From contig DASXUT010000159.1 of assembly GCA_036504675.1 (NCBI GenBank), positions 1-47,487 on the forward strand: a stretch of 47,487 nucleotides of DNA. The letters are read 5' to 3'. Shown here piece by piece: positions 5,814 through 10,556 of the stretch. Made by a program: the position numbers and the translations under genes. The notes below the pieces were generated by a model. That model saw only the letters and a list, made by a program, of their open reading frames with translations, was not told where the DNA came from and did no database searches. The stretch's first letter is position 1, and the number at the start of each line of letters is the position of its first letter. Source of the stretch: Bacillota bacterium. Lineage in GTDB: Bacteria > Bacillota > Sulfobacillia > JAJYWN01 > JAJZPE01.

Positions 5814-6740
5814 CTAGCCGATGCTCCTGATGACCTTGCGAATGGCGTCAGATGAGCGCTGTAGACCAGTCTTCTCGTCTGGCTCGAGGCCGACATCGAG
5901 GATCCTTTCAACCCCGCCCCCGCCGATGACGCACGGGACGCTCATGAAGATGTCCCGCTGGCCGAATTCCCCGTCCAGGTAGGTCGATACGGAGAAGATC
6001 CGGTGCTGGTCGAGGATGACCGACTCGACCATCCTGGCGATCGAGGCGCCAGGGGCGTAGTAGGCGCTCCCCGACTTGAGCCGGCTGACGATCTCCTCGC
6101 CGCCCTTCCGCGTCCGTTCAGCTAGGCGGAGCAGGGTTTCGCGACCGAGGAGCCGCTCCGCCGGAACGCCTCCGACCGAGCACGAGTCGAGGAGGGGTAC
6201 CATGTCGTCACCGTGGCCTCCGATGACCAGGGCGCTGACATCCTGGACGGCCACCTTCAACTCCATGGCGATGAAGGTCTGGAAGCGGCATGAATCAAGC
6301 AATCCCCCGAGGCCCATGATCCGGCTCTTCGGCAGTCCGGTGTGCTTGTATGTCAGGTAGCTCATGGTGTCGACGGGGTTGGTGACGATCAGGAGGAAGG
6401 CCTCAGGAGAAAGGGGAAGGGCGGCGTCGAGGACGTGCAGGAGGACTCTCGCGTTGTTCTGAGCCAACTGCTCCCGGGTCATCCCGGGCTTGCGGGCGCT
6501 CCCGGCGGTGATCACGATCATGTCGGAATTGGCGGTGTCGCCGTAATCATTGGTCCCGCTGATGGCGACGTCGAACCCGACGACGGGAGCCGCTTCCTGC
6601 ATGTCCAGGGCCTTGCCCTGGGGGATTCCCTCGACCACGTCAAGGAGGACCGTATCGGCGACGTTCTTGGCCGCGCACAGCTGAGCGACGGTCGCACCGA
6701 CGTTCCCGGCTCCGATGATGGTGACCTTCTTCCGGTTCAT
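5814..6740 (-). CDS. mdh: Malate dehydrogenase (LDH/MDH family)
   Basis: Cytoplasmic NAD-dependent dehydrogenase interconverting malate and oxaloacetate. ATG at 6740 is chosen because GGAGGGG stands about 10 bases before it; the frame is open further upstream without a site. The Rossmann motif is VTIIGAGNVGATVA. The substrate loop ARKPGMTREQL carries the arginine typical of malate rather than lactate enzymes. VTNPVD is present, and the catalytic histidine is in GGHGDDMVPL. The length, 308 residues, is usual for the LDH-like MDHs. It follows yeiH and comA in the same direction, so activity on sulfolactate cannot be excluded, but the known sulfolactate dehydrogenase ComC belongs to a different family. 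Confidence 0.9.
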   Translation of the reverse strand: MNRKKVTIIGAGNVGATVAQLCAAKNVADTVLLDVVEGIPQGKALDMQEAAPVVGFDVAISGTNDYGDTANSDMIVITAGSARKPGMTREQLAQNNARVLLHVLDAALPLSPEAFLLIVTNPVDTMSYLTYKHTGLPKSRIMGLGGLLDSCRFQTFIAMELKVAVQDVSALVIGGHGDDMVPLLDSCSVGGVPAERLLGRETLLRLAERTRKGGEEIVSRLKSGSAYYAPGASIARMVESVILDQHRIFSVSTYLDGEFGQRDIFMSVPCVIGGGGVERILDVGLEPDEKTGLQRSSDAIRKVIRSIG

Positions 6741-6945
6741 GACCCAATTCCCCTCCAGTGTCGTGGGTCGGCCGTCGCGAGACGGCCGCCCGCCAACAAT
6801 AGCCGATGCTCCGATGGCGGGAACCTCTTCAGTGTTAGTCCTACGGACGGAATCAGGTCTAAGTTTGCCACGCCGACTCAAAAAACCTTCCTGCCAGCCA
6901 CCAATGGAGTCGGGGGGCGACGGATCTCTGGGAATACACGAAGGA

Positions 6946-7024: not shown

Positions 7025-8080
7025 CTAGGCCATTCCGATGAGCCACCAAACCAGGAAGAAGTTGACCAGGGTGACGGCGGCCTCGACGCCGCAGCCGACG
7101 ATGAATGGTTTGATGCCGGCCTTCATGTCGGCGAACCGCATCGACAACCCGACCCCGGCAAAGGTCATCGAGAACAGCCACTTGGACAGACCGGTCAGGG
7201 CCTTGACCTGAGCTGGGGCGAAGAAGCCGAAGGTGGCCAGGGCGGACACGGCCAGGAAGCCGAGGACGAACTTGGGGAAGCGGTCCCACAGGAACTTGCC
7301 CTTGTTTTTGACCTGGGCGGTCATGCCGCGCTGCGCGTACCAGACGGCCATGGCCAGGATGACCAGGCCCATCAGGGTGTTCCGGGCAAGCTTGACGACG
7401 GTGGCCACCTTGCCGGCCGCTTCGGAGAAGGCCATCCCGGTGGCGACGGTCTCGGCCGTGTTGTCGACGCTGACGCCGGCCCAGAAACCGAAGAACTTAT
7501 CGCTCAGCCCGAGGGTCTGGCCGAGGAGCGGCAGCAAGAAGACCATGACGGCGCCAAAGAGGAGGATGGTGGCGACGGCATAGCCCTGGTCGTCCTCATC
7601 GGCGTCGATGGCCCCGGAGGCGCCGATGATCGCCGACACGCCGCAGATGCCCACGCCGACCCCGATCAGGCTGCCCAGCTTCTCCTTGAGCTTGAACGCC
7701 TTGGCCAGGTAGTGGGCGACGACGATGGAGACGAGGATCTCGACGACGACCAGGATGACCCCCGGGCCGCCGATTTTGGCCACATTCTGCAGGGCCAGCC
7801 CGACGCCCATGAAGACGATGCCCGTCTTCAGCCAGAGCTCGTAGGTCTTGACCCCGGGGACGAAGATCTTGGGCAGGCCGGTCGTGTTGGAGATGAGCAT
7901 CCCCAGGGCGATGGCGAAGAGAACGTATTCAGTATGCGGGACGTACCTGGCGATGACCTTCCCGGCATAACCGAGGGCGAGGAGCAGCGCCAAACCGGGC
8001 ACATAGGCGAGCCCGCGGGTGACGATGCCGGACCCCCTGGCGGGGACCGCCGCATTCGGCGAGCTTGGAGTCACTGACAC
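7025..8080 (-). CDS. YeiH-family membrane transporter (putative sulfate/sulfonate exporter)
   Basis: Polytopic membrane protein of 351 residues in the YeiH/PSE family ('putative sulfate exporter'). Around ten hydrophobic segments are visible. Family signatures include GLPKIFVPGVKTYELWLKTG, GVGVGICGVSAIIGASGAI and AGVSVDNTAETVATG. It starts with GTG after GGAGGGG. It is third in an operon behind comA and a 35-residue membrane protein, which suggests that it handles sulfite or a sulfonate made by ComA. YeiH relatives in proteobacteria sit next to sulfur genes, but the transported compound is not firmly known. Confidence 0.88.
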   Translation of the reverse strand: MSVTPSSPNAAVPARGSGIVTRGLAYVPGLALLLALGYAGKVIARYVPHTEYVLFAIALGMLISNTTGLPKIFVPGVKTYELWLKTGIVFMGVGLALQNVAKIGGPGVILVVVEILVSIVVAHYLAKAFKLKEKLGSLIGVGVGICGVSAIIGASGAIDADEDDQGYAVATILLFGAVMVFLLPLLGQTLGLSDKFFGFWAGVSVDNTAETVATGMAFSEAAGKVATVVKLARNTLMGLVILAMAVWYAQRGMTAQVKNKGKFLWDRFPKFVLGFLAVSALATFGFFAPAQVKALTGLSKWLFSMTFAGVGLSMRFADMKAGIKPFIVGCGVEAAVTLVNFFLVWWLIGMA

Positions 8081-8123
8081 TTAGTTCCCCTCCATAGACT
8101 TGATGGTTTTGAGGTGGTCCGCG

Positions 8124-8231
8124 TCACCACGGGATCTTAGTAATGGCCCCGGCCTTCACCAGGCAGATGACGATCCCGGCGAGGATGACCGCCACCCAGT
8201 CGATGTGGATGTAGACGCCGAAGATCTTCAT
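8124..8231 (-). CDS. 35-residue membrane microprotein coupled to comA
   Basis: A short gene missed by usual length cut-offs. It begins MKIFGVYIHIDW and ends AGAITKIPW, with one hydrophobic segment (about residues 11-25) carrying a single cysteine. Its ATG overlaps the comA stop as ATGA, and GGAGGGGAGAGG lies just upstream, so translation is probably coupled to comA. Codons end almost always in G or C, as in the neighbours. It is followed 43 bases later by yeiH. It could be a small subunit or stabiliser of the YeiH-type transporter; that is inference. I recognise no family. Confidence 0.75.
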   Translation of the reverse strand: MKIFGVYIHIDWVAVILAGIVICLVKAGAITKIPW

Positions 8232-9061
8232 CCTCTCCCCTCCTTCCTGGGAAGACATGTCTTGAAGGTGTCCCCGCGCAGCCCCACCCGCAGGGACTCG
8301 AGGGCAATGACCTCATTGGTCTGGATGTTGCCCAGGTTGACGTCTGGGCCAAAGCGCAGGAGCAAGGCCTCTTGCTGGTTCTTCAGAGGGGCTTCCCAGA
8401 GGATGTCCCGGGGGTCGGGCAGGCCGGCCACGATCAGCTCCAGCTCGTCCTGCTTGACCGAGCCGTCGGCGGCGTAGATACCGATACCCTTGCCTGACTC
8501 GCGGGCCTCGATGATTACCTTGAACGAGCCGTCGGCCAGGTCTTGCCGGGCCATCCGGTGAGTCTCTTCCGGGACCAGCTTGTGGTGGGCATCCTTCTTC
8601 CCCACCTCACTGACGACGCGGAAGCCGGCCGCGACGGCCTTACGGATGCACTCCGACCGCAACGACCCGTCCAGCTCGATGGTCCCGTCGGAGACCTCCA
8701 GCCAATTGAAGCCGGCGTCGGCAGCCCACCTCAGGAAGCGGTCGACGATCCCCTGGAAGATGGCGACCTCCAGGAGGGTGCCGCCGGGACAGGCGTTGAC
8801 GCCGCGGTCGCGGATCAGGGCCAGCTTCTTCTGGAGGACCTTCGGTGGATATAGGGCCGAACTTCCGAAGCTGATCTTCATCAGGTCGATGTACTCGCCC
8901 GCCAGGTCCAGGAGGTCCCCCGTCTCCCCGAGGCCAAGCCCCTTGTCGATGACCATGGTCAGGCCGTTGGCCCTTGGTTTGGGACTCCGTCCCTTGATCG
9001 GGTAGGCGGAAAACTCCGTCCACGCTTTCAACTCCTCGCTCGGGCTTTCCGCTCGAGCCAT
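8228..9061 (-). CDS. comA: Phosphosulfolactate synthase ComA
   Basis: Adds sulfite to phosphoenolpyruvate to give (R)-phosphosulfolactate. This is the first step of coenzyme M synthesis in methanogens and, in bacilli, of the sulfolactate found in spores. The protein (277 residues) shows the TIM-barrel family blocks MVIDKGLGLGETGDLLD, YIDLMKISFGSSALYP, CPGGTLLEVAIFQG, WLEVSDGTIEL and VVSEVGKKD, with the conserved Lys, Asp and Glu residues. AAAGGAG lies 10 bases before the ATG. It is the first gene of an operon with the microprotein and yeiH. With a SASP gene 5 kb away, a spore-sulfolactate role is plausible but not shown. Confidence 0.93.
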   Translation of the reverse strand: MARAESPSEELKAWTEFSAYPIKGRSPKPRANGLTMVIDKGLGLGETGDLLDLAGEYIDLMKISFGSSALYPPKVLQKKLALIRDRGVNACPGGTLLEVAIFQGIVDRFLRWAADAGFNWLEVSDGTIELDGSLRSECIRKAVAAGFRVVSEVGKKDAHHKLVPEETHRMARQDLADGSFKVIIEARESGKGIGIYAADGSVKQDELELIVAGLPDPRDILWEAPLKNQQEALLLRFGPDVNLGNIQTNEVIALESLRVGLRGDTFKTCLPRKEGRG

Positions 9062-9245: not shown

Positions 9246-10556
9246 TCAGCCGACTTCTGTCGGCCGGCCCTGGGCCAGGTACTCGACGATCCGGGCGCCC
9301 AGGGTCTGGAGGGCGGCCTCGTTGACCCGGTAGTACCGGAGACGTTCGGTGTCATGAACGGTCACCAGCCCGGCCCGGACCATCAGGTCCAGGTGGTGAA
9401 GGATGGTCGGGTGGGTCAGCCCCAGGGCCTCGGCCAGTTCCTGCGTGTAGCGCTCGCGCTCGGCCAGGAGCCGCATCATCTTCAGCCGGGTCTCGTCGCC
9501 GAGGGCCTTGTAGACGGCAACCAGCGAGGCGGCCTCCCTAGCCCCGGCCCGCGGCCGACCGCGCTTGCGATCGGTCTTCGGGGGACGGCCTGGCCGCCCG
9601 CGACCAACCCTACTGGGCGACGCCGGCGGAATCGACGGAGCGGGCGGAATCGACGGAGCGGAAGCGATCGCGGCGGCCCCTTCCTCCGGCGGGAGTCGGG
9701 ACCCCTGGGGCAACCGCAACTCGGGGCTGGAGGCGTGGCCCTCGTCCGTCGCCGGCGAAACCGGCGGGACTTCTTCCGCCCGGGTCTCAAGAGGATAGAT
9801 GATGATCCGGTCTCCACCATAGTTGACCCCGAGGGTGAAGGGCCGAATGTAGAAGGACGGGGCCAGGACGACTCGCTGTAGCCGGTTGTCCTCGAGGATG
9901 GTCTCCCCGGTCAACTGCTCGATCAACTCAGCCGGCCCGGCGGTGGTCGCCGCCCGCCGCTTCCGCACCACGTCGGCCGAGAAGAGCGCGGCCAGCTTGT
10001 CCTCTTCCCCGCGGTACAGACGCTCGTAGAGATCGGTCAGGAGCTGCAGCACGCGGCGTTTGCTCTCGGCCGGGAAACGCAGGAAGACCTTGGCCTTCTC
10101 GCGTTCCTCGACCCTCAGGAACCACCGTAGGACGTACTGGAGCTTGGGGTCGTCATCCCGAACCCCCTCGTATCGCTCCAGGATGTCGTCGAGGAGCGGG
10201 TGAAAGCTTTCCGGCATCCGGGCGGCCAGGATGACCTTGGTCACCTCGGTCGGGGGCGTGCTCTCGAGATATTGGAGGAAGTCCCCGACCCGACCGTCCC
10301 GACCGGACCGGGGCACCAGGGCCAATAGGTCGATGGCCGTCGGGTTCTGCAAGAAGTAGTATCTGAGCTCGCGCAGGGCTTCCGGCCCGACGACCCGTCT
10401 GGTGGCCATCAGCCAGCCCTCAGGAAAGTCGAAGCTGTAGCCTTCACCGCTCCGCAGCACGGCGTAGACGGAGGCGAAGAAGTCGAAGGTCGGGGATGGA
10501 CTGAACTCCAATTCCGGAAGCGACCTAAATGGCTGGCGCCCAGAGAAAACGCTCAT
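9246..10556 (-). CDS. ArsR-type regulator with long N-terminal domain and AT-hook-like linker
   Basis: A 436-residue DNA-binding regulator. The C-terminal 80 residues are an ArsR winged helix: VYKALGDETRLKMMRLL, TQELAEALGLTHPTILHHLDLMVRAGLV and RLRYYRVN. The N-terminal 280 residues form an all-helical then beta-rich domain (FDFFASVYAVLRSG at the start) of the kind found in large ArsR relatives. Between them is a Pro/Ala-rich linker with two AT-hook-like patches, GRGRPGRPP and RKRGRPRAG (about residues 330-350). GGAGG precedes the ATG. An inverted repeat just upstream (10577-10607) is a likely self-regulatory site. No metal-binding cysteines are obvious, so the ligand is unknown. Confidence 0.85.
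   Translation of the reverse strand: MSVFSGRQPFRSLPELEFSPSPTFDFFASVYAVLRSGEGYSFDFPEGWLMATRRVVGPEALRELRYYFLQNPTAIDLLALVPRSGRDGRVGDFLQYLESTPPTEVTKVILAARMPESFHPLLDDILERYEGVRDDDPKLQYVLRWFLRVEEREKAKVFLRFPAESKRRVLQLLTDLYERLYRGEEDKLAALFSADVVRKRRAATTAGPAELIEQLTGETILEDNRLQRVVLAPSFYIRPFTLGVNYGGDRIIIYPLETRAEEVPPVSPATDEGHASSPELRLPQGSRLPPEEGAAAIASAPSIPPAPSIPPASPSRVGRGRPGRPPKTDRKRGRPRAGAREAASLVAVYKALGDETRLKMMRLLAERERYTQELAEALGLTHPTILHHLDLMVRAGLVTVHDTERLRYYRVNEAALQTLGARIVEYLAQGRPTEVG

Follow-up and report, generated by a model that had tools for sequence, protein, structure and literature searches.

A 35-residue membrane protein encoded upstream of yeiH in a Bacillota bacterium matches the first helix of longer one-piece transporters

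The window analyzed in this work (the whole stretch of 47,487 nucleotides, from a Bacillota bacterium) contains a frame of 35 codons, which we call mic, between comA, a gene for phosphosulfolactate synthase, and yeiH, a gene for a YeiH-type transporter. This raises the question of whether so short a frame encodes a protein and, if so, with which of its two neighbors this protein works. The features of the locus are the following.

7025..8080, minus strand: yeiH, YeiH-type transporter (PF03601, E 4.9e-72; TIGR00698, 119.5 bits)
8087..8093, minus strand: ribosome-binding stretch of yeiH, GGAGGGG, read from the spacer
8124..8231, minus strand: mic, 35-codon gene of a small membrane protein, stop included in the coordinates
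8228..8231, minus strand: ATGA overlap of the mic start with the comA stop
8232..8243, minus strand: ribosome-binding stretch of mic, GGAGGGGAGAGG, within the 3' end of comA, read from the sequence
8228..9061, minus strand: comA, phosphosulfolactate synthase (PF02679, E 9.8e-87; TIGR03849, 323 bits against a cut-off of 280)

The genes thus follow each other on the minus strand in the order comA (9061-8228), mic (8231-8124), and yeiH (8080-7025). The ATG of mic (8231-8229) overlaps the TGA of comA (8230-8228), GGAGGGGAGAGG abuts this ATG on its 5' side, the 35 codons are followed by a TGA, and the GTG start of yeiH lies 43 nt past the mic stop. An earlier note on this DNA had placed the gene at exactly these coordinates without stating the strand, which is minus; reading 8124..8231 on the plus strand does not give the protein. 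Other features it had listed can be read from the sequence as well: the start of the frame overlaps the stop of comA, the ribosome site is strong, and the frame is intact, has one hydrophobic segment, and lies directly before yeiH. The product, MKIFGVYIHIDWVAVILAGIVICLVKAGAITKIPW, shows one hydrophobic segment, and AlphaFold2 modeled the small protein of a close relative (L006) as one helix. Searches with the mic product gave no Pfam or NCBIfam match up to an E-value of 10, and a 44-residue query holding the peptide retrieved only the window's own copy from a set of 5.8 billion proteins, in a search that needs shared five-residue words. A literature search of titles and abstract starts found no published description of the 35-residue protein.

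To answer the first part of the question, we looked for mic in 60 relatives. Three genomes of the same family or order carry it at 69-83% identity and 5 further relatives at 38-50% identity (E 8e-5 to 0.01), and these 9 places (window counted) are all directly 5' of yeiH. Six weaker matches (L012-L017, E 0.03-0.96) came without a YeiH match and were taken as chance. Among the 4 closest sequences, the dN/dS of mic was 0.19-0.39 in all 6 pairs, with a Fisher p below 0.05 in 4 of them (0.068 and 0.138 in the other 2), against 0.76-3.03 for the two alternative reading frames in the 4 pairs tested. A purine-rich stretch resembling a Shine-Dalgarno sequence precedes the small frame in 27 of the 27 relatives examined that carry it separately from yeiH (split relatives), the start codon having been partly chosen by this same criterion. 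Altogether, these results confirm that mic is a real, conserved protein gene under purifying selection. The earlier note had made its proposal depend on finding a similar short frame beside yeiH or comA in related genomes and conservation of its amino acids; these analyses were run, and both frame and conservation were found. The small protein of one locus (L215) is diverged and ends in FVKW instead of VPW; it was missed by the first search and found with a wider model.

We then analyzed which neighbor accompanies the small gene. The search was done with YeiH alone as the query (E ≤ 1e-60), so that loci were not picked by the small frame. YeiH of the window's type was found in 14 of 398 genomes of the phylum and 11 of 154 genomes of the class, which together make 24 different genomes; PF03601 genes in general occur in 180 of the 398. 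A model of the small frames found mic in 24 of these 24 genomes, immediately 5' of yeiH and in the same orientation; relative to the first aligned codon of yeiH, the mic stop is located anywhere from 24 nt inside to 169 nt ahead. comA is directly upstream of mic in 16 of the 24 loci, and in each of these 16 the comA stop overlaps mic or is at most a few bases away from it, but no comA was found within the fetched flank of the other 8. Approaching from ComA, 7 of 80 ComA loci have a window-type yeiH, and all 7 carry mic; these are genomes also within the 24 and do not form a second sample. Among the 80 ComA loci, many of them short, those lacking a PF03601 match also lacked a small-frame match at E < 0.01. 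YeiH is therefore the constant partner of the small protein, because comA was found upstream in just 16 of 24 loci, and ComA accompanies it often but not always. The proposal in the earlier note that the small protein is made in step with ComA thus fits two thirds of the loci, those with overlap or near contact, and does not extend to the 8 in which comA was not found. In five loci (L199, L200, L203, L208, and L209) the comA stop lies inside mic, shortly before a conserved Asp-Trp pair, which makes the overlap much longer than ATGA. The window's own genome encodes a second ComA of 50% identity (L002, contig C12), and the stretch fetched around it has neither a YeiH nor a small-frame match.

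The YeiH protein encoded next to mic scores 242.9 bits with PF03601, against a Pfam gathering score of 24.5, but stays at 119.5 bits with TIGR00698, below the NCBIfam cut-off of 232.6. Four other relatives that bear the additional helix described below (L118, L110, L102, and L044) score 85.3-134.5 bits with this second model. Among 6 scanned relatives without that helix, one passes the cut-off (L129, 261.4 bits) and 5 do not (132.4-224.3 bits), and the TIGR00698 cut-off is thus no marker of the helix-less group.

A clue to the function of the small protein came from a profile model (A1) built from 12 small frames, with no fused form included. Among 398 genomes it gave 34 matches at E ≤ 0.01, of which 18 are separate frames beside a PF03601 gene (window counted) and 13 lie inside a PF03601 gene, all 13 near the N-terminus. 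The other 3 (L120, L159, and L160) are weak matches with no PF03601 match in the fetched stretch and were taken as chance. The 13 fused proteins have 439-477 residues, and their first membrane helix is the in-frame DW...VP helix; a further long protein with an EDWW motif (L088) was found through ComA. Aligning 23 small frames with the N-terminus of 74 long forms by hhalign gave a probability of 96% (E 4.2e-9 for a single pair; 71% in global mode), and aligning them with the whole long form gave 93% locally and 68% globally over the same residues, whereas for 70 helix-less YeiH proteins, used as a control, the probability was 0.1%. Both the small-frame and the long-form alignments have an invariant Asp-Trp, with D and W present in 23 of 23 small frames and in 25 of 25 of a wider set. 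The small protein thus has the sequence features of the first helix of the long forms, with DW and VP, and judged by these alignments it is the apparent counterpart of the first membrane helix of one-piece PF03601 relatives. This in-frame fused form and the co-occurrence in 24 of 24 genomes back the suggestion of the earlier note that the protein serves the YeiH-type transporter as a small subunit or as a regulator, and favor the subunit.

The fused and split forms also differ in the number of helices that precede the core. In all 27 split YeiH proteins, the residues ahead of the first core helix (up to 45 scanned, only 16 in L103) contain no hydrophobic segment above the threshold. Fused proteins have two such segments in 12 of 13 cases, as does L088; in the remaining one (L124) only one segment passes the threshold. 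We placed these proteins on a tree of 107 PF03601 rows (115 frames minus 7 duplicates and 1 frame shorter than 250 residues), made by a quick method without bootstrap. The 41 helix-bearing rows (27 split, 13 fused, and L088) are separated from the 66 rows without the helix by one branch with an SH-aLRT of 100. L009/L039 was labeled as split by hand because its small frame was missed by the distance filter, and the YeiH of L157 is cut. The 66 helix-less rows consist of 30 best-match loci and 36 picked by hand from the listed matches, and are a non-random share of the family; none showed either the fused helix or an upstream small frame (in L187 the upstream region lies beyond the contig end). 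Since these 66 relatives appear to do without it, the helix would not be essential to the PF03601 fold. Within the helix-bearing branch the split state occurs in two groups, one of the window's type (23 rows) and one beside fused rows (L108, L110, L111, and L157), and by this quick method the split and fused labels each need at least 2 changes on the tree. One fused protein (L126) sits on a long branch, and its place is unsure.

The Putative Sulfate Exporter family (PF03601) has been described as comprising single-chain forms of 9 helices (PSE_1) and 11 helices (PSE_2), the latter with two added N-terminal helices, the N-terminus being inside in both (PMC8396727). From these two extra N-terminal helices, the long form found here would be PSE_2 as so described. 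The first added helix of PSE_2 matches the small protein, the family is the same, and the gene order corresponds to the helix order; the difference is that PSE_2 has both added helices in one chain, whereas here one is a separate 35-residue product and the second is absent. The YeiH proteins of E. coli and Salmonella, which we take to be of the 9-helix PSE_1 form, resemble the split YeiH in having a PF03601 core without added helices, but differ in that sampled relatives of this kind show no small frame upstream. Transporters of the same fold type that occur both fused and as two genes have been described in LrgA/LrgB and LysA/LysB (PMC8396727), where the small partner has, by description, 4 or 3 helices rather than the single helix of mic. 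Fused and split transporters of this fold type are thus known, but none that we found has a part of one helix and 35 residues.

Considering the sequence comparisons together, we think it probable that the small protein is a structural subunit of a sulfite-type transporter, that is, a first helix encoded in trans, which would insert as a single helix and pack against YeiH. In the long form, the second added helix would link the first one to the core, which begins on the inner side, by leading the chain back there. Split proteins lack this bridging helix, and with a core beginning inside, a single helix that ends outside could not be joined to it directly; therefore either a bridging helix or a separate gene would be needed, and in the split form the helix would be supplied in trans by mic. 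We presume that the core is of the elevator type and that the small protein sits on its outer, or scaffold, side and may stabilize the fold or the dimer there, and that translational coupling may keep its supply matched. More generally, the evidence leans towards an elevator-type family that delivers its outermost helix interchangeably, either in cis, together with a bridging helix, or in trans from a 35-residue gene. A point against this reading is that the charge bias expected of an N-terminus lying inside is weak: in 27 split small proteins, K and R residues are more numerous on the N side than on the C side in 14, equal in 10, and fewer in 3, the window's own protein being one of these 3.

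Structural models were examined for the added helix as well. In a joined chain of the L006 small protein and YeiH, residues 11-30 reached a pLDDT of 96, and in the long form residues 21-40 reached 93-96, values that a lone helix can also score. The N-terminus of the joined model (KIFGISIHI) is drawn as two short strands, at residues 2-7, before the helix. The added helix was not covered in either model by any of the 50 solved chains listed, and plain Foldseek gave no more than 3 matches at E ≤ 0.001, their TM-scores being 0.26-0.36. In the comparison with the long form, the CitS rows begin at model residues 52-57 (chain residues 18-25), after the first added helix, and with the joined model no row among the matches listed begins before residue 34. 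These comparisons thus do not support a view of the small protein as the first helix missing from the repeat of CitS or ASBT, although they barely test these parts, and nothing can be excluded by absence from a list of this kind. VIA-align ranks Na+/H+ antiporters first, which differs from the reentrant-helix-reentrant fold given to the family from trRosetta models in the published description (PMC8396727).

Other explanations of the small protein have to be weighed against a structural subunit, and the one deserving most attention is that of a dissociable, condition-dependent regulator of YeiH, which would tune its activity or substrate choice without being a fixed part. KdpF and CydX are examples of single-helix small proteins with a large membrane partner. 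Single-helix modulators of transporters are also known, as AcrZ is for AcrB (PMC7267776); with its one helix in the L006 model and its conserved place beside one transporter (24 of 24 genomes), the mic product resembles AcrZ as described there, and separate genes permit separate control. AcrZ is a modulator, however, whereas the helix studied here has a homolog fused into the transporter, and this speaks for a built-in part. This permanent fusion in another branch and the tight linkage to yeiH both favor a fixed subunit, and we regard a regulator as unlikely. It is far less probable still that mic is a leader peptide, in which translation and not the product would control yeiH. Its shortness, its place directly 5' of yeiH, and its overlap or contact with neighbors in many loci would suit a leader, but the amino acids are kept across families, with an invariant Asp-Trp and a low dN/dS, and the long-form proteins contain the same sequence.

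The match to the long-form front could also be explained by decay, if a long-form gene had been split by mutation and mic were the debris of its front part. We give this hardly any credence: an in-frame start, a ribosome site, and a stop right past the conserved end are present in 27 of the 27 split loci examined, and mic is under purifying selection and present in many genera. Finally, the small protein might work with ComA in sulfonate synthesis and precede yeiH by chance. Although comA is the gene directly upstream in most loci, we consider such a partnership very improbable and disfavor it, because 8 of 24 loci have no comA in the fetched flank, those of the 80 ComA loci (many of them short) that lack a PF03601 match yield no small frame at E < 0.01, and the fused partner of the helix is a PF03601 protein. 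A structural subunit of YeiH thus remains our preferred reading.

The substrate of this transporter may be sulfite or another, related sulfur anion. In the ComA reaction, sulfite is added to phosphoenolpyruvate; from this use of sulfite, and from the sulfur genes that lie beside the mic-yeiH pair in three genomes lacking comA, we infer a sulfite-type substrate. Of the 8 comA-less loci, 6 were examined for neighbors, and in 3 of them a sulfate- or sulfite-metabolism gene lies next to the pair: an APS kinase just downstream of yeiH (L007), a sulfite/nitrite-reductase half domain just downstream of yeiH (L008), and, upstream, a sulfite/nitrite-reductase-like protein with a TusA domain (L107). No sulfur gene was among the neighbors at the other 3, which include an MFS gene and a transposase (L102), FTR1 (L106), and a YARHG protein (L100). 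In the second split group, the neighbors are an alcohol dehydrogenase in L108 and a Na/Ca exchanger in L157, with nothing in L110. In Salmonella, sulfite resistance in vitro has been reported to be driven primarily by YeiH (PMC12880088).

If the small protein is indeed such a subunit, it would represent a helix of a sulfite-type exporter that is detachable by nature, and the fused and split forms would make a clean, testable case of a helix becoming a separate gene, or the reverse. The parity rule suggested by the two forms (two added helices when fused, one when separate) could then guide the search for subunits of 30-40 residues encoded beside other transporters, and lost transporter helices could be sought among unannotated tiny frames upstream. 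PF03601 genes are common, and the role of the family in sulfite resistance has been reported only recently (PMC12880088); expression or structure work on this branch that starts from the annotated gene alone could be spoiled by the missing 35-residue subunit.

Two other genes of the window flank the locus on the same strand. Upstream of comA (9246-10556, minus strand) lies a gene for a protein of 436 residues, a possible regulator, which carries an ArsR-type HTH at the C-terminus behind a long N-terminal part that is unassigned. After yeiH (5814-6881, minus strand) there is a gene of the malate/lactate-dehydrogenase type (PF00056, PF02866), the product of which might act on a sulfonate made through ComA.
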